From Plotosus lineatus (taxonomy: Eukaryota > Chordata > Actinopteri > Siluriformes > Plotosidae), in NCBI GenBank assembly GCA_024760905.1, contig CM045750.1:11916419-11980418 (forward strand): DNA of 64,000 bases, written 5' to 3'. Position 1 is the stretch's first letter, and every line of letters begins with the position of its first letter. The notes beneath the pieces were generated by a model. The model had not been told where the DNA came from. It saw nothing but the letters and a program-made list of their open reading frames with translations, and searched no databases. Made by a program: the position numbers and the translations under genes. This document shows, in pieces, positions 32,266 through 62,175 of this stretch.

Positions 32266-35200
32266 ATGGAAACTGTGAGCGATCTCGCTGCACCTTCTCG
32301 TGCTCAACCCTCTCCAGTGAGTCCTTTCACTGCACTGAGCGGCGAGGTGTTCACGTGCAACAACACCCTTCCCGACCAGCCAACCAGCGTCGGAGCGGCT
32401 CCCGGGGGCGGGACCGTCACGGGGCTCTTCCCTTCAGAACGAGGTAGAATTTGATTTTGGGAATGTAGATGTTCATCATTTATTTGGAAATCGCTTCCCT
32501 GTAATAAATCAGAAAATATTTATACATGAAAAATATCATCAATATTATTACACTGAACTACGAAAGAAAGTTTTTGTGGTTTCTTTTCAAATGTAATTAT
32601 ATTGAGTATCTAGGAGAACATGCATTTCGAGCTTCGGGAGGCTAGTGCCCATTTCAGCCGAGGCCGGGCGATGGCAGGGTGCACCCTGAACAGCTCGCCA
32701 TACCGCCGGCAGCCCAGGAGCCTCTTTCCCAACGACAGCAACGGTTCCTTTCCATCCCCAGAGATCCCGGACTTCCGCTATTTTTCCAGCTAAAGTGTTT
32801 TTAATCTTGTTTTTCCCTTCAAAACATATTTGGTTCCGAAAAAAAGAACAGCAGATAAGTTCTCATTCAGTGCATTGTTGAGTGAGGTGTTGGTCGAGTT
32901 AGTGTTTTTTTAACAGCTGTGTCGCGCCACTCTAGTGTTCCGTGAGATTCAGTACAGTGTATACAGTACTATAGTCAGGTGTGCCGTGGGAAATTATCCA
33001 ATTTCACCTAATTGGTCTAAAATAATGTAATAAATACACTTCGCCTGTAGGGGGAAGCAGGTAGTTAGTTGCCTTTTACTTTGAAGTGGATGAGTGACGC
33101 TGGATGATGCAGGTGGTGGCAATGACGTGAGGAAAAACTTCTTTCACGTCATTGGGTGGTGACGATTAGCAACACACAACGGTGACCATGATGGAAAAGT
33201 TTTGGAAAAGTAAAAATACGAACTCCCAACTGGACTCCGGACAAAATTCGGACCCAGATGAAGGGCTTTGTATGAGTTTAGGTCAAAAGAAAGCAGAGAC
33301 GGTGAAGCCGAGCAAAGCCTGGAGCGCGAGGCACACCGGAAGCTGTCTGTCATTTGGATTCACGTTTACCGGAGATGAAACTCCACTGGTACCGGTGTGT
33401 TTGGTGAAAGGCTATCTAACAGTGGTGTCGTACAAAGTAAGCTTTTCAAGCCTGACTTCCATGAAAACAAGAAACCGAGAGACTGAGGAAGGTCAGAGCT
33501 GTTGAGGAAGAGCTTGGTTGTGTGTCTTCGATTCCTGTCAGGATGTCAGCTCTGTTCATCCACACAGGCCCAGGATTTACACTGAGTGACGAGAAAAAGG
33601 AAAAAAAAGACATTTCTTTGTGTTTATTTGATTCTTGTTAAAGAAATTTCGACGAAATTTAACACCACCTCAAGATTTATTTCAAAGAAAAAGTGTAACT
33701 TGGCTCAAAAAAGGTTGGAAAATAATGGAGAAGAGAAAAGACGGCGCGGGCTCCAGACAAACTCCAGCTCGCGCTTTGCTTTCTAATGCACTGAACTCGA
33801 ATATTTCATGAAAAAGACATCCTCCATAAAATGGCGAGCGGAACAATGTCGCCACTCTCGGTGTTTATTTTTCAAGATCAACATCCGGGGAATGCACTTT
33901 GGCGTCTTGGGGATGGTGAATTGATTAACTATGCGGGGGCGTGGCTTTCGCTGAAAAGGCACTGCAGAGTAAGGAAACATGGAGAGAGAGAAAAAGACAG
34001 AAAACAAAACTATAAAATGCATGGGAAGCTTTGAGGATAAAATCAGTGTTATATTATGCATATTTTTCTGATTGTTTTCCACTTTTTGTTATCATAAATT
34101 TTTTTACTTGTGAATATATAATATAAGAAATGCAGTCATTTAAACACTATTCATGATATGCTGGATAAATTATTTACAGTATTAGAATATGAACTTTCCC
34201 ACCATGCCCAGATATGAGGTACAACATCAACTTTACATCAAATGTCTCCACAATAGAATTTCCATAGGACTGTGTCTACATATTCAAAATGACTGAATCA
34301 CTGACTTGTATATACAGTTCATTCATGAAGAATGATGGTTTATATCACATGACATTTTTATGAAAGCTCAAAACTGAGATGAACTGTTCTAGATTTCAAA
34401 ATATGACATCAAATGTGTTCTGCAGCATCTGTAATTGTTAAAATGTCAATAACTTGATGGTGCCTCGTCCCCTGAAACTTCACAAGAGGCCTGATTCCCA
34501 TTGCAAACAAAAAAGAGATTCAAGACTTTTGGACAGTCTCCCTCTGTTCTGTTCAGGGTTTGATTGAAAACTCTTTGATAATAATTTTTTAACGTGATTT
34601 ATAATGTTCATTTCTCACCCACAGATGAAGCAAACGAGACCCAGTGGAAGGGGAAGAAAGGCCGCATCAAGAGACCCATGAACGCCTTTCTAATTTGGTC
34701 AAGGATTCACAGGCCCATCCTGGCAAAGGCGAATCCGACGGCAAAGAGCTCCGACATCAGTGTGGAGCTGGGGAACGAGTGGAGGAAACTCACTGAAGAC
34801 CAGAAGGAGCCCTATTACAAAGACGCCAAGAGGCTTGAAATCCTCCACAGAGAGAAGTTTCCTGGTAAGGAACATAGAATTCACAGATCATGAGGAAATT
34901 CTAGACACTAACAGATCCACCCTCAGACTGTTTGTGGTTGTTCAGTGTGTTGTTGAATTCACCTGTAAACCTTTCTTTCCTGTGATGTAGAATACAGCTT
35001 CAATCCACGTGGAGAGAAAAGGAAGCACTCTGATGGAGAGACACTTCAGGCCTCCACTGCCTCATCAGCTGTCGTGCAGAGAACCCAAAGGCGGTCTGCA
35101 CCTGATAAGATCCCTGCAGCACCGCTGAGATCCTCCATCTCACAGGACTCTGCAGGACACACCAGTCTTACATCCTCCGGTACACAGCACTTTCATTCTT

Positions 35201-35861
35201 CTGCCGTCGTTCTTTTTCATCTTACTCATAAGAATAGTCTTTATTTTAATTATTATTTTATTATCTAAAAAGAAAATTATATTGTTTCAGATGTCTTCTC
35301 ACATGAGCAGTGAGATAATTCATATCACTGTTTAATTTTAGGTACTTTACAGTGTGCTGCCTACCAGTGGACTCCAGTCCTACAGGCACACCACCCTGTG
35401 ATGATGGACGGGTCAGGAGGAGTTAGACTGGTGTCTGAACCTCTTGGCCAATTCTTTGGCGATGGGAGCCTCTCACCTCAGCTCGTTTCTGGGCTAACAA
35501 CGGCTCCAGTCGACCAGATCCGGTGAGTAATCTGCACTGGGTTGACTTCAGAAGATCAGTGATTCCAATAAAGTGTTTCTGCAGCGTCTCAGGTAGTCGC
35601 TGTAATAGACATCCGATTGCTTTTTCTTATGGATGCAAATTTCTGTTTTATAGCCCCTTGAGTTCTGACCAGCTGAGCAGTGTGGCTCACCCCATGGGCG
35701 GAGACGGTGGCTCTTTCTACGAGTACAGAGACATTTTCAAATTAATAGAAGTCAACAACCATGACGTGATCAACAGCATAGAGGACCTGAATTCCTCCCT
35801 AAATCATAATCTTTATGATCTTGAAAATATAATCAACAGCCTTTTAAATGCCAAGACGTGA
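32266..35861 (+). CDS. sox30-like: SOX30 (SoxH)-like HMG-box transcription factor, copy A, 331 aa
   Basis: A predicted nuclear sequence-specific DNA-binding protein; SOX30 in mammals and fish is mainly a testis/germ-cell regulator. Exons: 32266-32443, 34625-34864, 34991-35179, 35342-35522 and 35654-35861, all GT-AG, phases 1,1,1,2, total 996 nt. Exon 1 gives a Pro/Ser-rich N-terminus ([10 protein letters not shown]). Exon 2 (residues 60-139) is the HMG box: RPMNAFLIW at 76-84, then [11 protein letters not shown], which is diagnostic for SOX30. Exons 3-4 are Ser/Pro- and Gln-rich. Exon 5 ends in an acidic, Leu/Ile-rich tail. Human SOX30 is about 753 aa, so this is a short version. It differs from C-E by NETQW in exon 2, SLSP in exon 4 and several tail residues. 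ATTAAA lies at 35931-35936. Other SOX groups lack the RIHRPxLAKAN run. Confidence 0.88.
32976..33720 (+). mobile_element. ZBED5/FAM200-type hAT fragment in intron 1 of copy A
   Basis: Starts near CAGGTGTGCCGTGGGAAATT (32976), the terminus type of hAT elements that gave rise to ZBED5/FAM200-like genes. It contains the 5' end of the transposase-like ORF. Copies B, C, D and E lack this block, so it was inserted into copy A only, or lost from the others. No right terminus was found. Confidence 0.65.
33182..33505 (+). pseudogene. ZBED5/FAM200-like hAT transposase N-terminal fragment
   Basis: The frame opens [14 protein letters not shown] (internal Met) and continues to [20 protein letters not shown], matching the 'YLxFGFTxTGDxxxPxPxCxxC' start of ZBED5/FAM200-type proteins. 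The reading frame then drifts and stops. The BED zinc finger is incomplete and the catalytic domain absent. Confidence 0.7.
33800..34000. other. CpG-rich conserved block in intron 1 (copy A)
   Basis: Contains CGCCACTCTCGG and GCGGGGGCGTGGCTTTCGC and a flanking GGAGAAGAG-AAAGACGGCGCGGGC segment. The same block recurs in intron 1 of B-E, where it carries better GC boxes and ATGGCGG motifs. It may act as an internal promoter or enhancer. Confidence 0.4.
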
Positions 35862-37179: not shown

Positions 37180-37193
<14 letters not shown>

Positions 37194-37237: not shown

Positions 37238-37241
<4 letters not shown>

Positions 37242-38450: not shown

Positions 38451-39515
38451 ATGGCTCCTAAACGCCCTGCACCACCTGCGGCATCCAATGAGCTCAAGAA
38501 AAAGCGAAAGATGATGACCGTGAATGAGAAGGTGAAGTTGTTAGATATACTGGCTGCAGGCAAAACTTACGCCCACGTGGCTCGCCAGTACGGCCTCAAC
38601 GAGTCCACCGTGAGGTACATCAAAAAAGACGAAGTGAACATTCGGAAAACGGCATCAATGTCCTTTTCCAAGGACACTAAGCGAGTGGTAAGCACCAGGG
38701 ATAAAAACATTGTTAAAATGGAGAAGGTGCTATTGGTTTGGATCTCGGACTGTCGGAAGAAGAAGCTCAGTCTCGATAGCAACATGATTCGAACCAAAGC
38801 GAAGGCTTTGTATGATAGCTTGGCTCCAGACGATGAAGATGAATCTCAGCCTAGTACCAGTACCGCTGAGCCACAAGGAAAACGTAGTTTTGCTGCCAGC
38901 AAGGGCTGGTTTGAAAACTTTAAGAAGAGGTACGGCCTGCAGAGTGTTTCGCTGTATGGCGAGGCCTCCTCCGCAGACCACGTGGCAGCCAAACGGCACG
39001 TCGAGGTAGAGTTCCCGAAAATAATGGAAGAGAATGGTTATCTTCTGGAACAAGTGTTCAATATGGATGAGACTGGTCTGTTTTGGAAGAGGATGCCTTC
39101 CCGGACATTTTTGTTCAAAGATGAACTGAAAAGGTCAGAGTTCAAGGCGCATCAGGATCGCCTCAGGTTCAACATGTGTGGGAATGCTGCTGGCTCAGAC
39201 ATGACGACGGAGGACGTCAACACACTGCTCGAGTGCCACTCAACCCCCCTAACTGATGAGGACCTCATTGAAATGACCAAATCTGGGAGTGAGGAAGAAG
39301 AGGTAGAGGAGGCAGAGGACGACGATGAGGATGAAGAGCGTGGTCTAACTTTGAGAAATCTGCAAGAGATTTTCAAGATGGCACGCAGTTTGCAACAAAG
39401 GGTCCAGGAGATTGATGACAACATGGTCAGAGCCATCGAATTTGGCAATTGTCTTGACAGTGTCATGTCCTTTTACAAAAACATGTTTGTAAAAAAAAAG
39501 AAACAGCAGTCATAG
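38451..39515 (+). CDS. Tigger/pogo-derived protein, 354 codons, catalytic core deleted
   Basis: An unbroken ORF derived from a Tigger-like transposase. Residues 1-60 hold a basic stretch (LKKKRKMMTV, NLS-like) and a psq/HTH domain (YAHVARQYGLNESTVRYIKK). Residues about 90-165 form a CENP-B-type second HTH ending KGWFENFKKRYGLQ. FNMDETGLFWKRMP (about 200-214) carries the first Asp of the DDE triad. At about residue 245 (MCGNAAG) the frame jumps to the family C-terminus (LTDEDLIEMTKSG), so the second Asp and the third acidic residue are missing. An acidic tract (EEEEVEEAEDDDEDEE) and a helical tail follow. It cannot transpose by itself. The frame survives the deletion, so it is either a young deletion derivative or a DNA-binding protein under selection; undecided. 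Confidence 0.6.
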   Translation: MAPKRPAPPAASNELKKKRKMMTVNEKVKLLDILAAGKTYAHVARQYGLNESTVRYIKKDEVNIRKTASMSFSKDTKRVVSTRDKNIVKMEKVLLVWISDCRKKKLSLDSNMIRTKAKALYDSLAPDDEDESQPSTSTAEPQGKRSFAASKGWFENFKKRYGLQSVSLYGEASSADHVAAKRHVEVEFPKIMEENGYLLEQVFNMDETGLFWKRMPSRTFLFKDELKRSEFKAHQDRLRFNMCGNAAGSDMTTEDVNTLLECHSTPLTDEDLIEMTKSGSEEEEVEEAEDDDEDEERGLTLRNLQEIFKMARSLQQRVQEIDDNMVRAIEFGNCLDSVMSFYKNMFVKKKKQQS

Positions 39516-40460: not shown

Positions 40461-40508
40461 TGCTCAGATGAAAAAGAACAGAGGCAGAAGAATGAAAGTG
40501 CTGTGTAC

Positions 40509-42576
40509 CAGAGGATGTATGACTGGCATGTCCTGCAGAGTCCTGTGAGATGGAGGATCTCAGCGGTGCTGCAGGGATCTTATAAGGTGCAGACCTCCTT
40601 TGGGTTCTCTGCACGACAGCTGATGAGGCAGTGGAGGCCTGAAGTATCTCTCCATCAGAGTGCTTCCTTTTCTCTGCACGTGGATTGTAGCTGTATTCTA
40701 CATCACAGAAAAGAAAGGTTCACAGGTGAATTCAACAACACACTGAACAACCACAAACCGTCTGAGGGTGGATCTGTTAGTCTCTATAATTTCCTCATGA
40801 TCTGTGAATTCTGTGTTCCTTACCAGGAAACGTCTCTCTGTGGAGGATTTCAAGCCTCTTGGCCTCTTTGTAATAGGGCTCCTTCTGGTCTTCAGTGAGT
40901 TTCCTCCACTCGTTCCCCAGCTCCACACTGATGTCGGAGCTCTTTGCCGTCGGGTTCGCCTTTGCCAGGATGGGCCTGTGAATGCTCGACCAGATTAGAA
41001 AGGCGTTCATGGGTCTCTTGATGCGGCCTTTCTTCCCCTTCCACTGGGTCATTTTTGCTTCATCTGTGGGCGAGAAATGAACATTATAAATCAAGTTAAA
41101 AAATTATCAAAGAGAGTTCTAGATCAAACCCTGAACAGAACAGAGGGAGACTGTGCAAAAGTCTTGAAGCTCTTTTTTTGTTTGCAAGGGGGAGCAGTTG
41201 GTTGTGAGGTTTCAGGGGACGAAGCACCATCAAGTTATTGTCATTTTAACATTTACAAATACTACAGAACACCTAAAACCTTTTTTTTTAATGAATAGGA
41301 AAATTTTCTATAAAAACATTTTGAAGTGAAATTATACATATAGTGTTCTCACGTCTTGGAATTCAAAAGGCTGTTAATAATATTTTCAAGTTCATCAAGA
41401 TTATGATCGAGGGAAGAATTCAGGTCCTCAATGCTGTCCATCCCGTCATTGTTGTCGAGTTCTTCTATTAATTCGTAAAGTTCCCTGTACTCGTAGAAAG
41501 AGCCACCGTCTCCGCCCATGGGGTGAGCCACACTGCTCAGCTGGTCAGAACTCAAGGGGCTATAAAACAGAAATTTGCATCCATAAGAAAAAGCAATCGG
41601 ATGTCTATTACAGCGACTACCTGAGACGCTGCAGAAACACTTCATTGGAATCACTGATCTTCTGAAGTCAACCCAGTGCAGATTACTCACCGGATCTGGT
41701 GGACTGGAGCCATTGTTATCCCAGAAACGAGCTGAGGTGAGAGGATCTCGTAGCCAAAGAATTGGCCAAGAGGTTCAGACACCAGTCTAACTCCTCCTGA
41801 CCCGTCCATCATCACAGGGTGGTGAGCCTGTAGGACTGGAGTCCACTGGTAGGCACCACACTGTAAAGTACCTAAAAAGAAACAGAGATATGAATTATCT
41901 CACTGCTCATGTGAGAAAACATCTGAAACAATATAATTTTCTTTTTATATAATAAAATAAGGACTATTCTTTGGCGTCAGATGAAAAAGAACGGCGGCAG
42001 AAGAATGAAAGTGCTGTGTACCAGAGGATGTATGACCGGCATGTCCTGCAGAGTCCTGTGAGATGGAGGATCTCAGCGGTGCTGCAGGGATCTTATAAGG
42101 TGCAGACCTCCTTTGGGTTCTCTGCACGACAGCTGATGAGGCAGTGGAGGCCTGAAGTGTCTCTCCATCAGAGTGCTTCCTTTTCTCTGCACGTGGATTG
42201 TAGCTGTATTCTACATCACAGGAAAGAAAGGTTTACAGGTGAATTCAACAACACACTGAACAACCACAAACCGTCTGAGGGTGGATCTGTTAGTCTCTAG
42301 AATTTCCTCATGATCTGTGAATTCTGTGTTCCTTACCAGGAAACCTCTCTCTGTGGAGGATTTCAAGCCTCTTGGCCTCTTTGTAATAGGGCTCCTTCTG
42401 GTCTTCAGGGAGTTTCCTCCACTCGTTCCCCAGCTCCACACTGATGTCGGAGCTCTTTGCCGTCGGATTCGCCTTTGCCAGGATGGGCCTGTGAATCCTC
42501 GACCAGATTAGAAAGGCGTTCATGGGTCTCTTGATGCGGCCTTTCTTCCCCTTCCACTGGGTCATTTTTGCTTCAT
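40509..42576 (-). pseudogene. sox30-like: Inverted, incomplete SOX30-like copy B
   Basis: Minus-strand exons in transcription order: 42576-42337 (HMG box), 42210-42022, 41871-41691 and 41559-41349 (with stop) form a complete type II cassette. A second cassette has exon 2 at 41063-40824 and exon 3 at 40697-40509 only. All kept exons have intact splice sites and frames. Exon 1 and the promoter are absent: intron 1 is cut near 43841, where it meets the flank of copy C. Exons 4 and 5 of the second cassette are lost at a break near 40465. The HMG boxes carry KLPEDQ (first) and SSIHRP (second). Without a start exon it is probably a non-productive relic, unless spliced to an outside promoter. Confidence 0.85.
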
Positions 42577-42599: not shown

Positions 42600-43840
42600 T
42601 AAATCAAGTTAAAAAATTACTCTCAAAGAGAGTTCTAGATCAAACCCTGAACAGAACAGAGGGAGACTGTGCAAAAGTCTTGAAGCTCTTTTTTTGTTTG
42701 CAAGGGGGAGCAGGTCTCTTGTGAGGTTTCAGGGGACGAAGCACCATCAAGTTATTGACATTTTAACATTTACAAATACTACACAACACATTTGAGGTCA
42801 TATTTTGAAATCTAGAACATCATTGGTAGAAATAATAGTTGAATCATAATAAAATTACATCAAAATGTACCTCTGAAGAATATACTTGCCTAAGTATTCC
42901 ACCAATTTTGTTTTATGAAATCATAGTTCATCTCAGTTTTTAGTTTTCAGAAAAATGTTATCTGATATAAACAATGTTCATTCTTCATAAAATCATGAAA
43001 ATATGCAGAAGTCAGTGATTCAGTCATATTGAATATGTAGACAGTACTATGGAAAGTAAATAGTGAAGACATTTGATGGAAAGTTGATGTAGTACTTCAT
43101 ATCTGGGCGGGGTGGGAAGGTTCATATTCTAATAAATAATTTATCCAGCATATCATGAATAGTGTTTGAAAGATTTCTTTTTAAATTCTTCTTCACAATT
43201 TAAATTTTTTTGTCAGACATAACATAAAACAAAGTGGGCAATAATAATCAGAAACATAAGCATAATGTAATACATGCAACACTTTTTGATTTTATGATCA
43301 AAATAACTCATGGAGTTTTGTTTTCTGTCTTTTTCTCTCGCCATATTTGTTTCCCTTTTGCTTTTTCAGCGAAAGCCCCGCCCCCGCATAGTCAATCACT
43401 TCACCGTCGCAAAGACTCCAAAGTGCATTCCCCGGATGTTGATCTTGAAAAATAAACACCGAGAGTGGCGACAGTATTTAATGCTCTCCAACCCCGACAC
43501 TGTTCCGCTATCTATTTTATGAAGGATGTTTTTTTCTCACTAAATATTCAAGTTGAGTTGATGAGAAAGTTCAGTGCATTAGAGAGCAAAGCGCGAGCGG
43601 GAGTTTGTCTGGAGCCCGCGCCGCCATATTGTTTTCTCTTCTCCAAAACACAACTCGAGCAACACCTCGCTCAACACAACATTGAATGAGAACTTATCCG
43701 CTCTTCTTATTTTTTAACAAAACAAGTTTTGAAGGGAAAAACAAGATTAAAAACACTTTGGCTGAAAAAGTAGCGGAAGTCCGGGATCTCTGGGGATGGA
43801 AAGGTTGCTGTCGTTGGGAAAGAGGCTCCTGGGCTGCCGG
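42600..43840 (-). other. Intron 1 of inverted copy B
   Basis: Homologous on the minus strand to intron 1 of C-E, including the CpG-rich block with GCGGGGGCGGGGC-type sequence (about 43360-43390) and the ATGGCGG region (about 43620). It retains the roughly 147-bp segment that C and D have lost. Confidence 0.8.
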
Positions 43841-44022
43841 CCTTTTCAATGACAAATATTACATTTTCAAGGAATACTTTCATCAACGTGCATGCAATAT
43901 CAATACAAACAAGATGTTGATAAGGATAGCGAACACATAATTCATGACATTTAAACAAAAATACTGAGAAACTGTATGTTAAATGTCATATTTAATCAGA
44001 TTCGAGCTGATAACCTCTCTCA

Positions 44023-44059
<37 letters not shown>

Positions 44060-44628
44060 AGTACAGAGACGAGCCGTGCACGCATGCGCACACACGCACA
44101 CCCCACGGTTTTTCAACACAACCGGCAGGTATATATTTATTTTTAGCCTGTGAAAGCTCAGTCGGGGTTTTTCTGTATAATTTAGTCCCAATCGGCCGTG
44201 TTCCCGCCAACAAATATATTTTTAAGGCTGGACTAAATAAAGATGGAATAATACAGTGGAATTTCTTCAAAATAAAATGGATAAGTTATTCCTCGGGTCA
44301 CGTGGTTTTGTTATTGCCATTTGAAAAAGAGACAGTTCCAAAACAAAATGGAAAAAACCCCACTAAATTGGTTTTGACGCTGATTGGTTGTACCATGCAG
44401 TTGAAAAGGATGCACAACGACGTGGATTGGCTATATACCGGGATGCAAATTAGATATGTGCGTCGACTGCAACGTCACTCATGACGCGGCAACTCGTTCG
44501 ATTTTCGTCAAAAACGTTCCATTTTATGTGTATAAAGACCGAGCATCCACTCAGTCAGTCTCAATTTGTTCTCGACCCCCATAACGAACACATCGCGTCT
44601 TCTCCTGCTCCAGTAATTTATTCTCCAC
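43841..44628 (+). promoter_or_regulatory. 5' flank and promoter of SOX30-like copy C
   Basis: Repeat-unit 5' flank from CCTTTTCAATGAC (junction with inverted copy B) through a (CA)n tract (about 44035-44060) to the ATG. Elements: TCACGTG E-box near 44298, GATTGG at 44382-44387 and 44425-44430, octamer ATGCAAAT at 44443-44450, CRE-like TGACGCGG near 44483, TATAAAGA at 44531-44538. The same layout is present in D and E. Confidence 0.65.
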
Positions 44629-47412
44629 ATGGAAACTATGAGCGATCTCGCTGCACCTTCTCGTTCTCAACCCTCTTCGGCGAGTCCTTTCACGACATTG
44701 GACGTCGAGATGTTCACGTTCGGCACCGCCCTTCCCGACCAGCCAACCACCGTCGGAGCGGCTCCCGGAGGCGGGATCTTCACGCGTCTCCCTTCAGCAC
44801 GAGGTCGGTTTCCCACCTGAAAACAGTCATTCTCGGTGGATAAACACACCCCAAGTGATTATCACATCTTTTACATTTACATACTCGGATTTATCTTTCG
44901 ACTCTCAGGCTTTCGGGTTGTGGTTTCTTTTCAAATGTAATTATATTGAATATCTCGGAGAACATTCATTCATTTTCTGAACCTAATTCGAGATTCGGGA
45001 GGCGAGTGCCCATTTCAGCCGGCGTCGGGCGATGGCAGGGTACACCCTGAACAGCTCGCCACACCGCCGGCAGCCCAGGAGCCTCTTTCCCAACGACAGC
45101 AACCTTTCCATCCCCAGAGAAGAGAAAACAATATGGCGGCGCGGGCTCCAGACAAACTCCCGCTCGCGCTTTGCTCTCTAATGCATTGAACTTTCTCATC
45201 AACTCAACTTGAATATTTAGTGGGGGGAAAAACATCCTCCATAAAATAGATAGCAGAACAGTGTCGGGGTTGGAGAGCATTAAATACTGTCGCCACTCTC
45301 GGTGTTTATTTTTCAAGATCAACATCCGGGGAATGCACTTTGGAGTCTTTGCGACGGTGAAGTGATTGACTATGCGGGGGCGGGGCTTTCGCTGAAAAAG
45401 CTTTGCGAGGGAAACAAATATGGCGCGAGAAAAGACAGAAAACAAAACTACATGAGTTATTTTGATCATAAAATCATAAAGTGTTGCATGTATTATATTA
45501 TGCCTATGTTTTTGATTATTATTTCCCACTTTGTTTTATGTTATGTCTGACAAAAAAAATTTAAATTGTGAAGAAGAATTTAAAAAGAAATCTTTCAAAC
45601 ACTATTCATGATATGCTGGATAAATTATTTATTAGAATATGAACCTTCCCACCCCGCCCAGATACGAAGTACTACATCAACTTTCCATCAAATGTCTTCA
45701 CTATTTACTTTCCATAGTACTGTGTCTACATATTCAATATGACTGAATCACTGACTTCTGCATATTTTCATGATTTTATGAAGAATGAACATTGTTTATA
45801 TCAGATAACATTTTTCTGAAAACTAAAAACTGAGATGAACTATGATTTCATAAAACAAAATTGGTGGAATACTTAGGCAAGTATATTCTTCAGAGGTACA
45901 TTTTGATGTAATTTTATTATGATTCAACTATTATTTCTACCAATGATGTTCTAGATTTCAAAATATGACCTCAAATGTGTTCTGTAGTATTTGTAAATGT
46001 TAAAATGTCAATAACTTGATGGTGCTTCGTCCCCTGAAACCTCACAAGAGACCTGCTCCCCTTGCAAACAAAAAGAGCTTCAAGACTTTTGCACAGTCTC
46101 CCTCTGTTCTGTTCAGGGTTTGATCTAGAACTCTCTTAACTTGATTTATAATGTTCATTTCTCGCCCACAGATGAAGCAAAAATGACCCAGTGGAAGGGG
46201 AAGAAAGGCCGCATCAAGAGACCCATGAACGCCTTTCTAATCTGGTCGAGGATTCACAGGCCCATCTTGGCAAAGGCGAATCCGACGGCAAAGAGCTCCG
46301 ACATCAGTGTGGAGCTGGGGAACGAGTGGAGGAAACTCGCCGAAGACCAGAAGGAGCCCTATTACAAAGACGCCAAGAGGCTTGAAATCCTCCACAGAGA
46401 GACGTTTCCTGGTAAGGAACACAGAATTCACAGATCATGAGGAAATTTATAGAGACTAACAGATCCACCCTCAGACTGTTTGTGGTTGTTCAGTGTGTTG
46501 TTGAATTCACCTGTGAACCTTTCTTTCCTGTGATGTAGAATACAGCTACAATCCACGTGCAGAGAAAAGGAAGCACTCTGATGGAGAGACACTTCAGGCC
46601 TCCACTGCCTCACCAGCTGTCGTGCAGAGAACCCAAAGGAGGTCTGCACCTTATAAGATCCCTGCAGCACCGCTGAGATCCTCCATCTCACAGGACTCTG
46701 CAGGACATGCCGGTCATACATCCTCCGGTACACAGCACTTTCATTCTTCTGCCTCTGTTCTTTTTCATCTTACTCATAAGAATAGCCTTTATTTTAATTA
46801 TTATTTTATTATCTAAAAAGAAAATTATATTGTTTCAGATGTCTTCTCACATGAGCAGTGAAATAATTCATATCTCTGTTTCTTTTTAGGTACTTTACAG
46901 TGTGGTGCCTACCAGTGGACTCCAGTCCTACAGGCACACCACCCTGTGATGATGGACGGGTCAGGAGGAGTTAGACTGGTGTCTGAACCTCTTGGCCAAT
47001 TCTTTGGCGACGAGATCCTCTCACCTCAGCTCGTTTCTGGGATAACAACGGCTCCAGTCGACCAGATCCGGTGAGTAATCTGCACTGGGTTGACTTCAGG
47101 AGATCAGTGATTCCAATAAAGTGTTTCTGCAGCGTCTCAGGTAGTCGCTGTAATAGACATCCGATTGCTTTTTCTTATGGATGCAAATTTCTGTTTTATA
47201 GCCCCTTGAGTTCTGACCAGCTGAGCAGTGTGGCTCACCCCATGGGCGGAGACGGTGGCTCTTTCTACGAGTACAGGGACATTTTTGAATTAATAGAAGA
47301 CATCAACAACCATGACGTGATGGACAGCATTGAGGACCTGAATTCTTCCCTCGATCATAATCTTGATGAACTTGAAAATATTATTAACAGCCTTTTGAAT
47401 TCCAAGACGTGA
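44629..47412 (+). CDS. sox30-like: SOX30-like HMG-box protein, copy C, 331 aa, single cassette
   Basis: Exons 44629-44803, 46172-46411, 46539-46727, 46890-47070 and 47202-47412, all GT-AG and in phase (996 nt). The protein starts [10 protein letters not shown]. The HMG box has RPMNAFLIW at 75-83 and [11 protein letters not shown]. The tail has [14 protein letters not shown], the type I form, with ATTAAA at 47494-47499. Intron 1 and the first half of exon 2 (KLAEDQ) match the type II cassettes of D and E. The end of exon 2 (YYKDAK), intron 3 and exons 4-5 match type I. The gene therefore looks like a crossover product that removed one cassette. No defect was seen; role as for copy A, inferred. 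Confidence 0.87.
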
Positions 47413-48108
47413 GAACACAATATATATCATTTCACTTCAAAATGTTTTATCTTTTGCATACTAAAAATGTTTTTATCGAAAATTTTACTTTTCATTAAAA
47501 AAGGTTTTAAAAGTTAACATGTGTATTTATTATAACCACAAATTCATTTTTATTCAAAAGAATTTTTATTTAAAACACTGAAATCATCTTTAATCGCCCA
47601 CTCATTTGCTGATCCACTGAATGCTACCAACATCACAAGAACCCTATCAAAGCCAAGGTTGGGAGGATGGGCGGTCACCACCTGAACAACTTGCTCACCC
47701 CCTCAAACACAAACACACACACACACACATTCACACTCCTCGAGAATTATAGGAGACATTTGCAGCACTTGGTTCGCTGAATGTGTTTGAGGACACCAGA
47801 CTACATGAAGAAAAATACATATAAGCACAAAGAGATCATTCAAACTCCACACAGTCACACCCACACCGAGCTCAGGAGATTCACTCATTATTTCAGTTTT
47901 TATGGGATATCACAGAATTTGGAATCATGTTCAAATCTGCATGGTGAGATTACGGATATAAACTTCCATAAAAATTTATAAATGCATCCTTATTTATTGT
48001 ATTAATCCCACAAAGTCAATTATTTCCTCTGCATTTAACCCACCCAAAGTGAAAACCCAAACACACAAGGAACAGTGGGCTGTCACACACCTTGGGGGGG
48101 CTCGGGGA

Positions 48109-48973
48109 TTCAAATAGAAGATATTTATTTCATTCTACTGTGTTTACAACATCACATACATAATATAGCATGATATATGAAAAAAATTCCCAATTAATCC
48201 CAATAACAACCATATAACCCTGTCCACCTGATCATCTAATCATCTGAAGAAATTGTGCACGGTATATTTTCTGGGCTCACCATTGAGAGGTTGTGGGTTG
48301 TGATATAAAAAGAAAATTATATTGTTTCAGATGTTTTCTTTTGCATAGTCTTCTCACATGAGCAGTGAGATAATTCATATCACTGTTTCTTTTTAGGTAC
48401 TGATTCAAACCCACAACCTCTCGATGGTGAGCCCAGAAAATATACCGTGCACAACTTCTTCAGATGATTAGGTGATCAGGTGGACAGGGTTATGTGGTTA
48501 TGATGGGTTTTTCAGGAAGATTGATCTCCAGGAAGAGGGACACCTTACTCCACCAGTACCTGAAGAGATTGTTGCAGCAGAGATTTTGACCAAACGGTTC
48601 GAAAAGTACAGATTTTAAGTAATTAACACCACCTTTACACTGAATTTCGTATTAAATGTCACACTCTGCAAAATCAGAGAAATTAAACGACTTCTGTTCA
48701 ACACCACAGCGCACGACTCGGCTTCACACAGAAATTACAAAAGTTCCACATCTTTAAGGTTCCTATTCGGTTCCCAAGGATATTAATGCCAGGCTAAAAC
48801 AATTCTTTGTTGGCAAGAACATGATTTAAAAAGATTCACCAGGGAGGGACGAAAAAAGTTTTGCATGTGCAGGCCACTCGGGATTCGCCAGGAAATTTTT
48901 TTCATATATCATGCTATATTATGTATGTGATGTTGTAAACACAGTAGAATGAAATAAATATCTTCTATTTGAA
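48109..48973. mobile_element. Palindromic element carrying a SOX30-like intron 3 fragment (copy 1)
   Basis: Outer arms beginning TTCAAATAGAAGATATTTAT (48109) and ending ATAAATATCTTCTATTTGAA (48973) are inverted repeats of about 80 bp. A second, inner inverted pair (CACGGTATATTTTCTGGGC near 48259 and GCCCAGAAAATATACCGTG near 48431) flanks a centre of about 100 bp. That centre, 48301-48400, matches SOX30-like intron 3 plus the first bases of exon 4 (compare 52517-52616), including TTTCTTTTTAG. The right arm has about 400 extra bases. It could be a foldback-type transposon or a hairpin formed by replication errors. Confidence 0.6.
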
Positions 48974-49077
48974 ATCAACATCCCGAATATCAAAGTTTAT
49001 TATTTTAATATTGTGATCAACAGAGTATCAAGGTTTCTTCATCATATCACAGTTCATGTCACATCAGAGTCACGAGG

Positions 49078-49436
49078 GCAGTGGTGGCCTGGTGGTATGG
49101 GTTCATTGGATCGCTGATCTGAAGGTTGGGGGTTCGAGTCCCACTCTCCACAAGGTTGTCACTGTGCCCCCCTCCAGTGCAGCGAACTGGGTTATCAAAG
49201 GCCGGCCATGTCTCTCACTGTCTATGGTGTGAGGCATGTAAAAAAAAAATAATAATAATAAATAAATCAAAAAACATTGCTGACTTTCATAAAAAGCAGC
49301 TCTAAAGCCGCCAGCGTGTTTCTGTCCCTTGTTAAAAAGTTGTGTCAGGAAGGACATCCGACATAAAAACCTACGCCAAATCAAAAGTGCGAAACATTCG
49401 CTGTGGCGACTCCTGATAAAGAGAAAAAGCCAAAAA
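49078..49436 (+). repeat. SINE S1 copy in the unit flank, with RTE-type tail
   Basis: Head GGGCAGTGGTGGCCTGGTGG, B box GGGGGTTCGAGTCCC, core, then TTGTGTCAGGAAGGACATCC and TTCGCTGTGGCGACTCCTGA. Full length and shared by every C-E flank. Confidence 0.9.
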
Positions 49437-49555
49437 GAAATCTCATCATGTTACATCAGAGTCAGCCATATCCCCTGGAAATTTTTACAAGACTCAAGAC
49501 CTCTTTTACAGGGTTCACAGCCCAGGCCTGATAAATTTCAAGCACTTTTTACAGA

Positions 49556-49732
49556 CTTTTCAATGACAAATATTACATTTTCAAGGAATACTTTCATCAA
49601 CGTGCATGCAATATCAATACAAACAAGATGTTGGTAAAGAAAGCGAACACATAATTCATGACATTTAAACAAAAATACTGAGAAACTGTATGTTAAATGT
49701 CATATTTAATCAGATTCAAGCCGATAACCTGA

Positions 49733-50349: not shown

Positions 50350-53135
50350 ATGGAAACTATGAGCGATCTCGCTGCACCTTCTCGTTCTCAACCCTCTTCG
50401 GCGAGTCCTTTCACGACATTGGACGTCGAGATGTTCACGTTCGGCACCGCCCTTCCCGACCAGCCAACCACCGTCGGAGCGGCTCCCGGAGGCGGGATCT
50501 TCACGCGGCTCCCTTCAGCACGAGGTCGGTTTCCCACCTGAAAACAGTCATTCTCGGTGGATAAACACACCCCAAGTGATTATCACATCTTTTACATTTA
50601 CATACTCGGATTTATCTTTCGACTCTCAGGCTTTCGGGTTGTGGTTTCTTTTCAAATGTAATTATATTGAATATCTCGGAGACCATTCATTCATTTTCTG
50701 AACCGAATTCGAGTTTCGGGAGGCGAGTGCCCATTTCAGCCGGCGTCGGTCGATGGCAGGGTACACCCTGAACAGCTCGCCACACCGCCGGCAGCCCAGG
50801 AGCCTCTTTCCCAATGACAGCAACCTTTCCATCCCCAGAGAAGAGAAAACAATATGGCGGCGCGGGCTCCAGACAAACTCCCGCTCGCGCTTTGCTCTCG
50901 AATGCATTGAACTTTCTAATCAACTGAACTTGAATATTTAGTGAGAAAAAAAACATCCTCCATAAAATAGATAGCAGAACAGTGTCGGGGTTGGAGAGCA
51001 TTAAATACTGTCGTCACTCTCGGTGTTTATTTTTCAAGATCAACATCCGGGGAATGCACTTTGGAGTCTTTGCGACGGTGAAGTGATTGACTATGCAAGG
51101 CGGGGCTTTCGCTGAAAAAGCTTTGAGGGAAACAAATATGGCGCGAGAAAAGACAGAAAACAAAACTCCATGAGTTATTTTGATCATAAAATCATAAAGT
51201 GTTGCATGTATTATATTATGCTTATGTTTTTGATTATTATTTCCCACTTTGTTTTATGTTATGTCTGACAAAAAAAATTTAAATTGTGAAGAAGAATTTA
51301 AAAAGAAATCTTTCAAACACTATTCATGATATGCTGGATAAATTATTTATTAGAATATGAACCTTCCCACCCCGCCCAGATACGAAGTACTACATCAACT
51401 TTCCATCAAATGTCTTCACTATTTACTTTCCATAGTACTGTGTCTACATATTCAATATGACTGAATCACTGACTTCTGCATATTTTCATGATTTTATGAA
51501 GAATGAACATTGTTTATATCAGATAACATTTTTCTGAAAACTAAAAACTGAGATGAACTATGATTTCATAAAACAAAATTGGTGGAATACTTAGGCAAGT
51601 ATATTCTTCAGAGGTACATTTTGATGTAATTTTATTATGATTCAACTATTATTTCTACCAATTATGTTCTAGATTTCAAAATATGACCTCAAATGTGTTC
51701 TGTAGTATTTGTAAATGTTAAAATGTCAATAACTTGATGGTGCTTCGTCCCCTGAAACCTCACAAGAGACCTGCTCCCCCTTGCAAACAAAAAAAGAGCT
51801 TCAAGACTTTTGCACAGTCTCCCTCTGTTCTGTTCAGGGTTTGATCTAGAACTCTCTTAACTTGATTTATAATGTTCATTTCTCGCCCACAGATGAAGCA
51901 AAAATGACCCAGTGGAAGGGGAAGAAAGGCCGCATCAAGAGACCCATGAACGCCTTTCTAATCTGGTCGAGGATTCACAGGCCCATCTTGGCAAAGGCGA
52001 ATCCGACGGCAAAGAGCTCCGACATCAGTGTGGAGCTGGGGAACGAGTGGAGGAAACTCGCCGAAGACCAGAAGGAGCCCTATTACAAAGAGGCCAAGAG
52101 GCTTGAAATCCTCCACAGAGAGACGTTTCCTGGTAAGGAACACAGAATTCACAGATCATGAGGAAATTATAGAGACTAACAGATCCACCCTCAGACGGTT
52201 TGTGGTTGTTCAGTGTGTTGTTGAATTCACCTGTGAACCTTTCTTTCCTGTGATGTAGAATACAGCTACAATCCACGTGCAGAGAAAAGGAAGCACTCTG
52301 ATGGAGAGACACTTCAGGCCTCCACTGCCTCACCAGCTGTCGTGCAGAGAACCCAAAGGAGGTCTGCACCTTATAAGATCCCTGCAGCACCGCTGAGATC
52401 CTCCATCTCACAGGACTCTGCAGGACATGCCGGTCTTGCATCCTCCGGTACACAGCACTTTCATTCTTCTGCCTCTGTTGTTCTTCATCTGACGCCAAAG
52501 AATAGTCCTTATTTTATGATATAAAAAGAAAATTATATTGTTTCAGATGTTTTCTTTTGCCTAGTCTTTTCACATGAGCAGTGAGATAATTCATATCACT
52601 GTTTCTTTTTAGGTACTTTACAGTGTGGTGCCTACCAGTGGACTCCAGTCCTACAGGCACACCACCCTGTGATGATGGACGGGTCAGGAGGAGTTAGACT
52701 GGTGTCTGAACCTCTTGGCCAATTCTTTGGCTACGAGATCCTCTCACCTCAGCTCGTTTCTGGGATAACAACGGCTCCAGTCCACCAGATCCGGTGAGTA
52801 ATCTGCACTGGGTTGACTTCAGGAGATCAGTGATTCCAATAAAGTGTTTCTGCAGCGTCTCAGGTAGTCGCTGTAATAGACATCCGATTGCTTTTTCTGA
52901 TGGATGCAAATTTCTGTTTTATAGCCCCTTGAGTTCTGACCAGCTGAGCAGTGTGGCTCACCCCATGGGCGGAGACGGTGGCTCTTTCTACGAGTACAGG
53001 GACCTTTATGAATTAATAGAAGAACTCAACAACAATGACGGGATGGACAGAATTGAGGACCTGAATTCTTCCCTCGATCATAATCTTGATGAACTTGAAA
53101 ATATTATTAACAGCCTTTTGAATTCCAAGACGTGA
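50350..53135 (+). CDS. sox30-like: SOX30-like HMG-box protein, copy D with type II cassette (D1), 331 aa
   Basis: Exons 50350-50524, 51893-52132, 52259-52447, 52613-52793 and 52925-53135; GT-AG and in phase, 996 nt. HMG box with RPMNAFLIW and [11 protein letters not shown], then KLAEDQ and YYKEAK. Exon 4 has GYEILSP and exon 5 [14 protein letters not shown], the type II signature. A stop and an AATAAA (53215-53220) follow directly, so a complete transcript can end here. One substitution (MDRIED for MDSIED) lies in the tail. A second cassette with its own exons 2-5 lies about 300 bp downstream. Confidence 0.87.
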
Positions 53136-53443
53136 GAACACTATATGCATAATTTCACTTCAAAATGTTTTCTTTTGCATACTTAAAATGTTTTTATCGA
53201 AAATTTTCCTATTCAATAAAAAAGGTTTTAGGTGTTCTGTAGTATTTGTAAATGTTAAAGTGCCAATAACTTGATGGTGCCTCGTCCCCTGAAACCTCAC
53301 AAGAGACCTGCTCCCTCTTGCAAACAAAAAAGAGCTGCAAGACTTTTGCACAGTCTCCCTCTGTTCTGTTCAGGGTTTGATCTCGAACCCTCTTTGATAA
53401 TAATTTTTGAACTTGATTTATAATGTTCATTTCTCGCCCACAG

Positions 53444-54683
53444 ATGAAGCAGAAATGACCCAGTGGAAGGGGAAGAAAGGCCGCATCAAGAGACCCATGA
53501 ACGCCTTTCTAATCTGGTCGAGGATTCACAGGCCCATCCTGGCAAAGGCGAACCTGACGGCAAAGAGCTCCGACATCAGTGTGCAGCTGGGGAACGAGTG
53601 GAGGAAACTCACTGACGACCAGAAGGAGCCCTATTACAAAGACGCCAAGAGGCTTGAAATCCTCCACAGAGAGACGTTTCCTGGTAAGGAACACAGAATT
53701 CACAGATCATGAGGAAATTATAGAGACTAACAGATCCACCCTCAGACGGTTTGTGGTTGTTCAGTGTGTTGTTGAATTCACCTGTAAACCTTTCTTTCCT
53801 GTGATGTAGAATACAGCTACAATCCACGTGCAGAGAAAAGGAAGCACTCTGATGGAGAGACACTTCAGGCCTCCACTGCCTCATCAGCTGTCGTGCAGAG
53901 AACCCAAAGGAGGTCTGCACCTTATAAGATCCCTGCAGCACCGCTGAGATCCTCCATCTCACAGGACTCTGCAGGACATGCCGGTCATACATCCTCCGGT
54001 ACACAGCACTTTCATTCTTCTGCCTCTGTTCTTTTTCATCTTACTCATAAGAATAGCCTTTATTTTAATTATTATTTTATTATCTAAAAAGAAAATTATA
54101 TTGTTTCAGATGTCTTCTCACATGAGCAGTGAAATAATTCATATCACTGTTTCTTTTTAGGTACTTTACAGTGTGGCGCCTACCAGTGGACTCCAGTCCT
54201 ACAGGCACACCACCCTGTGATGATGGACGGGTCAGGAGGAGTTAGACTGGTGTCTGAACCTCTTGGCCAATTCTTTGGCGACGAGATCCTCTCACCTCAG
54301 CTCGTTTCTGGGATAACAACGGCTCCAGTCGACCAGATCCGGTGAGTAATCTGCACTGGGTTGACTTCAGGAGATCAGTGATTCCAATAAAGTGTTTCTG
54401 CAGCGTCTCAGGTCGTCGCTGTAATAGACATCCGATTGCTTTTTCTGATGGATGCAAATTTCTGTTTTATAGCCCCTTGAGTTCTGACCAGCTGAGCAGT
54501 GTGGCTCACCCCATGGGCGGAGACGGTGGCTCTTTCTACGAGTACAGGGACATTTTTGAATTAATAGAAGACATCAACAACCATGACGTGATGGACAGCA
54601 TTGAGGACCTGAATTCTTCCCTCGATCAGAATCTTGATGAACTTGAAAATATTATTAACAGCCTTTTGAATTCCAAGACGTGA
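53444..54683 (+). CDS. sox30-like: Second (type I) exon 2-5 cassette of SOX30-like copy D (D2)
   Basis: Exons 53444-53683, 53810-53998, 54161-54341 and 54473-54683, with intact splice sites, the same phases as D1 and a terminal stop; AATAAA at 54743-54748. There is no first exon of its own: the 220 bp upstream matches only the 3' end of intron 1 (CAAGAGACCTGCTCCC to CTCGCCCACAG). It can be expressed only if exon 1 of D splices past D1 to 53444, or if D1 exon 3 splices to it in frame. HMG-box changes [12 protein letters not shown] and KLTDDQ set it apart from every other copy. The tail is [14 protein letters not shown]. Either a functional alternative cassette or a decaying one. Confidence 0.75.
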
Positions 54684-56815: not shown

Positions 56816-56940
56816 TCATCATGTTACATCAGAGTCAGCCATATCCCCTGGAAATTTTTACAAGACTCAAGACCTCTTTTACAGGGTTCACAGCCCAGGC
56901 CTGATAAATTTCAAGCACTTTTTACAGACTTTTCAATGAG

Positions 56941-57102: not shown

Positions 57103-57137
<35 letters not shown>

Positions 57138-57704: not shown

Positions 57705-60627
57705 ATGGAAACTATGAGCGATCTCGCTGCACCTTCTGGTTCTCAACCCTCTTCGGCGAGTCCTTTCACGACATTGGACGTCGAGATGTTCACGTTCGGC
57801 ACCGCCCTTCCCGACCAGCCAACCACCGTCGGAGCGGCTCCCGGAGGCGGGATCTTCACGCGGCTCCCTTCAGCACGAGGTCGGTTTCCCACCTGAAAAC
57901 AGTCATTCTCGGTGGATAAACACACCCCAAGTGATTATCACATCTTTTACATTTACATACTCGGATTTATCTTTCGACTCTCAGGCTTTCGGGTTGTGGT
58001 TTCTTTTCAAATGTAATTATATTGAATATCTCGGAGAACATTCATTCATTTTCTGAACCTAATTCGAGTTTCGGGAAGCGAGTGCCCATTTCAGCCGGCG
58101 TCGGGCGATGGCAGGGTACACCCTGAACAGCTCGCCACACCGCCGGCAGCCCAGGAGCCTCTTTCCCAATGACAGCAACCTTTCCATCCCCAGAGATCCC
58201 GGACTTCCGCTACTTTTCCAGCCAAAGTGTTTTTAATCTTGTTTTTCCCTTCAAAACTTGTTTTGTTAAAAAATAAGAAGAGCGGATAAGTTCTCATTCA
58301 ATGTTGTGTTGAGCGAGGTGTTGCTCGAGTTGTGTTTTGGAGAAGAGAAAACAATATGGCGGCGCGGGCTCCAGACAAACTCCCGCTCGCGCTTTGCTCT
58401 CTAATGCATTGAACTTTCTCATCAACTGAACTTGAATATTTAGTGGGGGGGAAAAACATCCTCCATAAAATAGATAGCAGAACAGTGTCGGGGTTGGAGA
58501 GCATTAAATACCGTCGCCACTCTCGGTGTTTATTTTTCAAGATCAACATCCGGGGAATGCACTTTGGAGTCTTTGCGACGGTGAAGTGATTGACTATGCG
58601 GGGGCGGGGCTTTCGCTGAAAAAGCTTTGCGAGGGAAACAAATATGGCGCGAGAAAAGACAGAAAACAAAACTACATGAGTTATTTTGATCATAAAATCA
58701 TAAAGTGTTGCATGTATTATATTATGCTTATGTTTTTGATTATTATTTCCCACTTTGTTTTATGTTATGTCTGACAAAAAAAAATTTAAATTGTGAAGAA
58801 GAATTTAAAAAGAAATCTTTCAAACACTATTCATGATGTGCTGGATAAATTATTTATTAGAATATGAACCTTCCCACCCCGCCCAGATACGAAGTACTAC
58901 ATCAACTTTCCATCAAATGTCTTCACTATTTACTTTCCATAGTACTGTGTCTACATATTCAATATGACTGAATCACTGACTTCTGCATATTTTCATGATT
59001 TTATGAAGAATGAACATTGTTTATATCAGATAACATTTTTCTGAAAACTAAAAACTGAGATGAACTATGATTTCATAAAACAAAATTGGTGGAATACTTA
59101 GGCAAGTATATTCTTCAGAGGTACATTTTGATGTAATTTTATTATGATTCAACTATTATTTCTACCAATGATGTTCTAGATTTCAAAATATGACCTCAAA
59201 TGTGTTCTGTAGTATTTGTAAATGTTAAAATGTCAAACACTTGATGGTGCTTCGTCCCCTGAAACCTCACAAGAGACCTGCTCCCCCTTGCAAACAAAAA
59301 AAGAGCTTCAAGACTTTTGCACAGTCTCCCTCTGTTCTGTTCAGGGTTTGATCTAGAACTCTCTTAACTTGATTTATAATGTTCATTTCTCGCCCACAGA
59401 TGAAGCAAAAATGACCCAGTGGAAGGGGAAGAAAGGCCGCATCAAGAGACCCATGAACGCCTTTCTAATCTGGTCGAGGATTCACAGGCCCATCTTGGCA
59501 AAGGCGAATCCGACGGCAAAGAGCTCCGACATCAGTGTGGAGCTGGGGAACGAGTGGAGGAAACTCGCTGAAGACCAGAAGGAGCCCTATTACAAAGAGG
59601 CCAAGAGGCTTGAAATCCTCCACAGAGAGACGTTTCCTGGTAAGGAACACAGAATTCACAGATCATGAGGAAATTATAGAGACTAACAGATCCACCCTCA
59701 GACGGTTTGTGGTTGTTCAGTGTGTTGTTGAATTCACCTGTGAACCTTTGTTTTCTGTGATGTAGAATACAGCTACAATCCACGTGCAGGGAAAAGGAAG
59801 CACTCTGATGGAGAGACACTTCAGGCCTCCACTGCCTCACCAGCTGTCGTGCAGAGAACCCAAAGGAGGTCTGCACCTTATAAGATCCCTGCAGCACCGC
59901 TGAGATCCTCCATCTCACAGGACTCTGCAGGACATGCCGGTCATACATCCTCTGGTACACAGCACTTTCATTCTTCTGCCTCTGTTCTTTTTCATCTGAC
60001 ACCAAAGAATAGTCCTTATTTTATTATCTAAAAAGAAAATTATATTGTTTCAGATGTTTTCTCACATGAGCAGTGAGATAATTCATATCACTGTTTCTTT
60101 TTAGGTACTTTACAGTGTGGTGCCTACCAGTGGACTCCAGTCCTACAGGCACACCACCCTGTGATGATGGACGGGTCAGGAGGAGTTAGACTGGTGTCTG
60201 AACCTCTTGGCCAATTCTTTGGCTACGAGATCCTCTCACCTCAGCTCGTTTCTGGGATAACAACGGCTCCAGTCGACCAGATCCGGTGAGTAATCTGCAC
60301 TGGGTTGACTTCAGGAGATCAGCGATTCCAATAAAGTGTTTCTGCAGCGTCTCAGGTAGTCGCTGTAATAGACATCCGATTGCTTTTTCTGATGGATGCA
60401 AATTTCTGTTTTATAGCCCCTTGAGTTCTGACCAGCTGAGCAGTGTGGCTCACCCCATGGGCGGAGACGGTGGCTCTTTCTACGAGTACAGGGACCTTTA
60501 TGAATTAATAGAAGAACTCAACAACAATGACGGGATGGACAGCATTGAGGACCTGAATTCTTCCCTCGATCAGAATCTTGATGAACTTGAAAATATTATT
60601 AACAGCCTTTTGAATTCCAAGACGTGA
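57705..60627 (+). CDS. sox30-like: SOX30-like HMG-box protein, copy E with type II cassette (E1), 331 aa
   Basis: Exons 57705-57879, 59400-59639, 59766-59954, 60105-60285 and 60417-60627; GT-AG, in phase, 996 nt. The HMG box is as in D1 (KLAEDQ, YYKEAK); exon 4 has GYEILSP and the tail [14 protein letters not shown] with [15 protein letters not shown] at 60707-60712. Exon 1 differs from C and D by SGSQP for SRSQP. Intron 1 keeps a roughly 147-bp segment (about 58194-58340) missing from C and D. Predicted nuclear transcription factor, function inferred from the family. Confidence 0.87.
58340..58660. promoter_or_regulatory. CpG-rich block with GC box and YY1-like motifs in intron 1 of E
   Basis: AATATGGCGGC at 58353-58363 and AATATGGCGCG near 58641 resemble YY1 sites (AANATGGCGGC). 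GGGGCGGGGC at 58601-58610 is a canonical GC box. The block is repeated in C (about 45130-45440), D (about 50850-51150) and inverted B. It is a candidate internal promoter that could make transcripts lacking exon 1. Motif evidence only. Confidence 0.4.
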
Positions 60628-60935
60628 GAACACTATATGTATAATTTCACTTCAAAATGTTTTCTTTTGCATACTTAAAATGTTTTTATCGAAAATTTTC
60701 CTATTCATTAAAAAAGGTTTTAGGTGTTCTGTAGTATTTGTAAATGTTAAAATGCCAATAACTTGATGGTGCCTCGTCCCCTGAAACCTCACAAGAGACC
60801 TGCTCCCTCTTGCAAACAAAAAAGAGCTGCAAGACTTTTGCACAGTCTCCCTCTGTTCTGTTCAGGGTTTGATCTCGAACCCTCTTTGATAATAATTTTT
60901 TAACTTGATTTATAATGTTCATTTCTCGCCCACAG

Positions 60936-62175
60936 ATGAAGCAAAAATGACCCAGTGGAAGGGGAAGAAAGGCCGCATCAAGAGACCCATGAACGCCTTT
61001 CTAATCTGGTCGAGGATTCACAGGCCCATCCTGGCAAAGGCGAACCCGACGGCAAAGAGCTCCGATATCAGTGTGGAGCTGGGGAACGAGTGGAGGAAAC
61101 TCACTGAAGACCAGAAGGAGCCCTATTACAAAGACGCCAAGAGGCTTGAAATCCTCCACAGAGAGACGTTTCCTGGTAAGGAACACAGAATTCACAGATC
61201 ATGAGGAAATTCTAGAGACTAACAGATCCACCCTCAGACGGTTTGTGGTTGTTCAGTGTGTTGTTGAATTCACCTGTGAACCTTTCTTTCCTGTGATGTA
61301 GAATACAGCTACAATCCACGTGCAGAGAAAAGGAAGCACTCTGATGGAGAGACACTTCAGGCCTCCACTGCCTCATCAGCTGTCGTGCAGAGAACCCAAA
61401 GGAGGTCTGCACCTTATAAGATCCCTGCAGCACCGCTGAGATCCTCCATCTCACAGGACTCTGCAGGACATGCCGGTCTTACATCCTCCGGTACACAGCA
61501 CTTTCATTCTTCTGCCGCCGTTCTTTTTCATCTTACTCATAAGAATAGCCTTTATTTTAATTATTATTTTATTATCTAAAAAGAAAATTATATTGTTTCA
61601 GATGTCTTCTCACATGAGCAGTGAAATAATTCATATCACTGTTTCTTTTTAGGTACTTTACAGTGTGGCGCCTACCAGTGGACTCCAGTCCTACAGGCAC
61701 ACCACCCTGTGATGATGGACGGGTCAGGAGGAGTTAGACTGGTGTCTGAACCTCTTGGCCAATTCTTTGGCGACGAGATCCTCTCACCTCAGCTCGTTTC
61801 TGGGATAACAACGGCTCCAGTCCACCAGATCCGGTGAGTAATCTGCACTGGGTTGACTTCAGGAGATCAGCGATTCCAATAAAGTGTTTCTGCAGCGTCT
61901 CAGGTAGTCGCTGTAATAGACATCCGATTGCTTTTTCTTATGGATGCAAATTTCTGTTTTATAGCCCCTTGAGTTCTGACCAGCTGAGCAGTGTGGCTCA
62001 CCCCATGGGCGGAGACGGTGGCTCTTTCTACGAGTACAGAGACATTTTTGAATTAATAGAAGACATCAACAACCATGACGTGATGGACAGCATTGAGGAC
62101 CTGAATTCTTCCCTCGATCATAATCTTGATGAACTTGAAAATATTATTAACAGCCTTTTGAATTCCAAGACGTGA
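60936..62175 (+). CDS. sox30-like: Second (type I) exon 2-5 cassette of SOX30-like copy E (E2)
   Basis: Exons 60936-61175, 61302-61490, 61653-61833 and 61965-62175, with intact splice sites, phases and stop; ATTAAA at 62257-62262. As in D2 there is no private exon 1, only about 220 bp of intron-1-like sequence upstream. HMG box: [24 protein letters not shown]. Tail [14 protein letters not shown]. Unlike D2 it has no unusual HMG substitution, so it looks fully usable if joined to exon 1 of E. Confidence 0.77.

Follow-up and report, generated by a model that had tools for sequence, protein, structure and literature searches.

How SOX30 (SoxH), a gene described as single in other vertebrates, has become a family in the catfish Plotosus lineatus is the question raised by the stretch of DNA analysed here, referred to as the window (64,000 nucleotides, C23:11916419-11980418; positions without a chromosome name are those of the window). 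The original prediction had proposed the local amplification of a SOX30-like gene into at least five copies. The amplification was borne out and extends genome-wide, with at least 28 SOX30-like HMG boxes on five chromosomes. The data suggest that SOX30 was probably amplified stepwise at the DNA level, a gonadal factor being kept as DNA-binding paralogues, with a recent and recombining array on C23. This reading is built on the copy number in the assembly, the gene structure, the open frames, the two types of exon segment and the constraint on the box, all of which are observed directly.

Six-frame reading of the window located eight SOX30-like boxes on both strands (34672+, 41016-, 42529-, 46219+, 51940+, 53491+, 59447+ and 60983+), and exon-level alignment groups them into five loci, A, an inverted B, C, D and E. 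These loci stand where they had been predicted, but five is too low as a count of boxes, because D and E carry a second set of exons 2-5 and B carries a truncated one; four more boxes follow beyond the window. Copies A and C consist of exon 1 and a single set of exons 2-5, D and E of exon 1 and two full sets, and B of one full set and a second set ending after exon 3. Exon 1 of copy B was looked for in the window by exon-level alignment and was not found.

32266..35861, + strand: copy A, SOX30-like gene; exons 32266-32443, 34625-34864 (HMG box), 34991-35179, 35342-35522 and 35654-35861; open for 331 residues, GT/AG sites
41349..42576, - strand: copy B set 1, exons 2-5; 42337-42576, 42022-42210, 41691-41871 and 41349-41559
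40509..41063, - strand: copy B set 2, exons 2-3 only; 40824-41063 and 40509-40697; homology stops at 40466
44629..47412, + strand: copy C, single set, recombinant of set 1 and set 2; exons 44629-44803, 46172-46411 (HMG box), 46539-46727, 46890-47070 and 47202-47412
50350..53135, + strand: copy D exon 1 and set 1; 50350-50524, then 51893-52132 (HMG box), 52259-52447, 52613-52793 and 52925-53135
53444..54683, + strand: copy D set 2, without its own exon 1; 53444-53683 (HMG box), 53810-53998, 54161-54341 and 54473-54683; open
57705..60627, + strand: copy E exon 1 and set 1; 57705-57879, then 59400-59639 (HMG box), 59766-59954, 60105-60285 and 60417-60627
60936..62175, + strand: copy E set 2; 60936-61175 (HMG box), 61302-61490, 61653-61833 and 61965-62175

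The start codons of A, C, D and E (32266, 44629, 50350 and 57705) each open a gene of five exons with GT/AG sites whose spliced product is open for 331 residues, as had been claimed for the four copies with a first exon, and D and E splice open to 331 residues with either exon 2-5 set. The starts of C and D are 5,721 bp apart and those of D and E 7,355 bp, in agreement with the earlier estimates of 5.7 and 7.4 kb. Identity to C at the DNA level is 97.0% for D over 3.7 kb, 96.0% for B over 2.35 kb and 92.7% for A over 1.6 kb (C 45947-47562), and these kilobase-long matches exclude chance as the source of the likeness. Over the 600 bp before the ATG, the promoters of C, D and E are 96.6-98.7% identical, so that their predicted near-identity holds, and that of A is only 62-63% like them. 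The array continues past the window to copies F (one set), G (two sets) and H (broken), giving 12 boxes in all between C23:11.951 and 12.009 Mb, and the promoters of C to G are 96.6-99.5% identical. Complete frames, open for 331 residues and with splice sites, are present in six copies of the array (A, C, D, E, F and the first set of G), and identity to the box of C is 94-100% for the 11 array boxes that are complete.

The assignment of the boxes to SOX30, also part of the original prediction, was examined by profile, structure and tree. The Pfam HMG_box match scores 73.7 bits, and the best solved-structure match is SOX30 (7jjk, 110 bits), with the single-box chains of SRY and SOX2 at 82 and 80 bits; a fused SRY/HMGB1 chain in the same PDB comparison reaches 105 bits, over two boxes. 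The box of C shares 58-65% identity with named SOX30 boxes, against 36-48% with the remaining SOX boxes in the tree. The tree comprised 52 boxes and 70 columns and was midpoint-rooted, the inner order being uncertain with 70 columns; a SOX30-like fragment at C7:56.817 Mb, short or non-SOX matches and P0011, whose motif escaped the pattern used, were left out. The 27 usable SOX30-like boxes form one clade (99/97) beside the SOX30 of Hemibagrus, Tachysurus, Pangasius and Pangasianodon, and a 99/99 branch sets these 27 and the four siluriform SOX30 apart from the rest, with the other SOX boxes lying beyond the tetrapod SOX30s. The 11 named SOX30 rows fail to group as a single exclusive clade (3 changes), as the tetrapod SOX30 stand between the catfish boxes and the other SOX boxes. 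In the tree, the array is closest to the copy on C24 (100/98).

The array genes also have the five exons expected of SOX group H. Thg1l was found at C15:30.17 Mb and the SOX30-like boxes that were read on C1, C3, C7, C23 and C24, so that the Thg1l synteny of tetrapods is absent (of the HMG matches left unread, a weak one is on C15 at 33.93 Mb), and the pair on C3 was ruled out as a tetrapod-type SOX30 locus because Thg1l is on C15 and not on C3. The lack of this synteny is no bar to group H membership, since linkage of SOX30 to Thg1l and Adam19 is documented, in the excerpt of PMC3004900, for human, mouse, chicken, anole and frog and not for teleosts. The sequence comparisons thus support the placement of the array boxes in SOX group H (SOX30).

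The wider family was surveyed by a Pfam HMG-box search of the genome (1.33 Gb, 30 contigs, about 24 of them chromosome-sized), which gave 72 matches, of which 53 were read and 19 were not, so that 28 is a lower bound. Besides the 12 boxes of the array, these are three at C23:24.22 Mb, one at C23:3.17 Mb, six on C7 (one a fragment), three at C1:123.02 Mb, two at C3:40.14-40.18 Mb and one at C24:18.96 Mb. All five exons with introns are present in three dispersed genes (C7:49.77, C7:56.86 and C24), and the box and later exons are recognised in the C3 pair. Retrocopies were ruled out by the introns of the dispersed copies, which are kept in the three genes with all five exons and in others with the box exon and further exons; therefore the dispersed copies appear to have arisen from genomic DNA, and we do not claim that each is a working gene. 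A shared carrier transposon was sought and none was found among the four longest matches per locus pair, these being gene body, within-cluster likeness or sequence recurring elsewhere. The last exon of one C3 gene (C3:40172000-40178999, positions 1-1721 of that stretch) contains a 66-bp coding tandem repeat of 26.1 copies in a frame that stays open for 693 codons, up to where the stretch ends, and its neighbour has a similar repetitive open tail over 400-odd codons, so the C3 pair likely encodes SOX30-like proteins with a very long tail of 22-residue repeats. On C1 (C1:123017000-123026999), 4,702 N bases directly follow the second box.

Selection was assessed with codon models, with the likelihood at omega 1 computed over a grid of six kappa values; recombination between copies disturbs such models. 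For 16 divergent boxes omega was 0.246, with twice the log-likelihood difference (2dlnL) from omega 1 at about 123, and the divergent boxes are maintained under strong purifying selection. For exons 2-5 of nine array copies omega was 0.69 (2dlnL 2.2), and changes in the young array are too few to reveal anything beyond a weak constraint on the box. Positive selection was rejected, no omega in the array exceeding 0.85. The 12 nonsynonymous and 0 synonymous differences between C and set 1 of D over exons 2-5 were set aside as well, nine of the 12 lying in exons 4-5, past the point where C switches to the set-2 type.

The growth of the array can be followed in two further features.

43842..49555, + strand: array unit C, 5.7 kb, head to tail; unit D begins at 49556 and unit E at 56929
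45977..47509, + strand: segment of copy C from intron 1 to just past exon 5; its counterpart occurs twice each in D, E and, outside the window, G, with a truncated second copy in B; junctions at 53230/53232 and 60722/60724

With introns included, the exon 2-5 segments are of two types, set 1 (B1, D1, E1 and G1) and set 2 (D2, E2 and F). Copy C is of type 1 to about segment position 545 and of type 2 from about 603, identity between F and E2 is 99.8%, and the inverted block of B ends at 43643, matching intron 1 of C. The segments differ by 0.2-7.6% (92.4-99.8% alike, or 96.7-99.8% without A and set 2 of G), and the synonymous difference over exons 2-5 is 0-3.9% among B1 to G1 and 7.7-8.8% to A. 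Near-identical tandem and inverted copies with recombination between them are the marks of an ampliconic array. We infer that SOX30 would have been copied as genomic DNA, introns included, to several chromosomes in this catfish lineage, that the dispersed copies would mostly have retained an open, constrained HMG box, and that one lineage, beside SLC46A3, would have multiplied head to tail on C23. There, the 1.53 kb exon 2-5 segment would have doubled within the gene before the whole unit multiplied, and recombination between the two sets would later have collapsed C and F to single sets; this order of duplication, multiplication and collapse is the simplest one suggested by the segment types.

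The neighbour of the array points to an older event.

14001..30971, - strand: SLC46A3, 1.3 kb from copy A in head-to-head orientation; residues 1-464 of the Ictalurus protein matched in five tblastn pieces, each at 69-97% identity

Among the best 120 of 317 matches, a queried SLC46A3 exon (85% covered) shares 82-84% identity with Pangasianodon gigas, Ictalurus, Tachysurus, Hemibagrus, Clarias and Silurus. Identity is 72% for Trichomycterus, 67-72% for characiforms and electric fishes and 78-84% for further entries. These values place the host among the siluroid catfishes, probably in none of the genera compared. A diverged piece of SLC46A3 exon 1 lies head-to-head with the decayed copy H (C23:11998976-11999124, 82706-82558 of the joined stretch), mirroring the arrangement of SLC46A3 and A. 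Because this second piece faces H and the likeness between the promoters of A and H is 75%, these two copies would go back to an old duplication of the SLC46A3-SOX30-like pair, and C to G would have arisen between them. Mobile and repeated sequences were also noted in the window: between copies A and B, a frame with Tc5 transposase DNA-binding and CENP-B N-terminal domains (38451-39515); on the minus strand at 402-3395, LINE-type endonuclease and reverse transcriptase frames, the class being judged by eye; and a tRNA-like short dispersed repeat with an Rfam tRNA match at 24072-24145. Sequence like 49077-49246, from this tRNA-like repeat, recurs at ten places in the window outside the array units and also in the dispersed loci.

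The units would most likely code for a number of short, near-identical SOX30-like transcription factors under one type of promoter, and in D and E either exon 2 could be joined to the shared exon 1, giving two variants. The phases of set-1 exon 3 and set-2 exon 2 agree, and a join of the two is open for 474 residues in both D and E. Set 1 of D, E and G retains its stop and an AATAAA or ATTAAA signal, the duplication joint lying 16 bp after it. Because the sequence downstream differs from that of C, it may be guessed that the change favours read-through to set 2. Published work, cited here from excerpts, reports that tilapia SOX30 is gonad-restricted with sex-dependent isoforms that skip exons (PMC3004900), that it is positively regulated by Dmrt1 (PMC6862701), that SOX30 is up-regulated in male channel catfish (PMC6173838) and that male Sox30-null mice are sterile (PMC5732304). 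If the expression is gonadal and dosage has an effect, the array would raise or diversify SOX30-like output in the germ line.

Several observations weigh against the stepwise amplification of a retained factor. Copy H is broken, set 2 of G has lost the acceptor of exon 4 and carries stops, and B is without exon 1; the C24 relative has GTG where the array has ATG and a disturbed exon-1 frame, and most other dispersed loci show the box and at most parts of adjoining exons. In the nine array copies the HMG exon is only marginally constrained (omega 0.36, 2dlnL 4.1) and exons 3-5 are indistinguishable from neutral (omega 0.85, 2dlnL 0.5). With a DMRT1-like consensus and at most two mismatches, no site was found in the promoters of C to G and one each in those of A and H. 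The damaged copies, the near-neutral tail exons and the missing ATG on C24 would fit a neutral amplification, in which a redundant SoxH paralogue recently expanded into the C23 array, whose copies are mostly unexpressed and decaying, and only some dispersed copies are of importance. We regard this as unlikely, as six array copies keep their open frames and splice sites and both the promoters of C to G and the array boxes are near-identical. A diversified germ-line SOX30 family in recurrent turnover, of the sort that sex linkage or conflict drives, in which the C23 array is the active front, with interchangeable exon 2-5 sets open to exon 1 and perhaps even a two-box protein, is likewise a doubtful extension of the data.

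That the array is sex-linked and ampliconic, differing in copy number between the sexes and acting in sex determination or sex-chromosome conflict, is quite improbable. The architecture is ampliconic, SOX30 in tilapia is gonadal and under Dmrt1, and copy-number variation is described as common among fish sex-determining genes (excerpt of PMC9917144), but nothing in the analysis connects C23 to sex and the wider family is on five chromosomes. An array inflated by haplotype copies or misjoined repeats is highly improbable: the likeness of the segments is in the range where assemblers can err, but the set-1 and set-2 types recur in order and older divergent relatives are present on other chromosomes. 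An assembly duplication as the source of the array is unlikely, because the segments differ in sequence, the unit structures differ and the 128.6 kb joined stretch contains zero N. The stepwise amplification of SOX30 at the DNA level is hence the reading we favour.

Group H is given as one gene in vertebrates, the only SOX group there with a single member, with sox30 not found in six teleost genomes, in the excerpt of PMC5524304, and a SOX30 multigene family, tandem duplication, SoxH expansion or ampliconic SOX30 was not found among the literature matches listed, which are open-licence papers. The array genes share with SOX30 the class of HMG box and, as in tilapia (PMC3004900, excerpt), five exons, the box here lying inside one exon; they differ in number, at least 28 boxes in this genome against one vertebrate gene. 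The nearest named relatives are the SOX30 of Pangasianodon, Pangasius, two Tachysurus and Hemibagrus. These catfish proteins have 363-544 residues compared with 331 in the array, that of Hemibagrus (P0001) can be aligned to the array protein through the exon 4 product, and each species has one entry among the matches listed, although the entries are clustered at 90% identity and could hide close copies. The SOX30-like gene and SLC46A3 of Hemibagrus wyckioides sit on contigs of different length (24,815,393 and 24,083,722), whereas the two adjoin in this genome. The family and its young recombining array represent a natural experiment on the dosage and divergence of a factor required by male mice to form sperm, and the array is a clear candidate for sex-linkage testing. 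Ampliconic germ-line gene families occur, for example, on mammalian sex chromosomes. The C23 array resembles them in its tandem and inverted near-identical units and in the signs of recombination between units, but differs in that the wider family is spread over five chromosomes.

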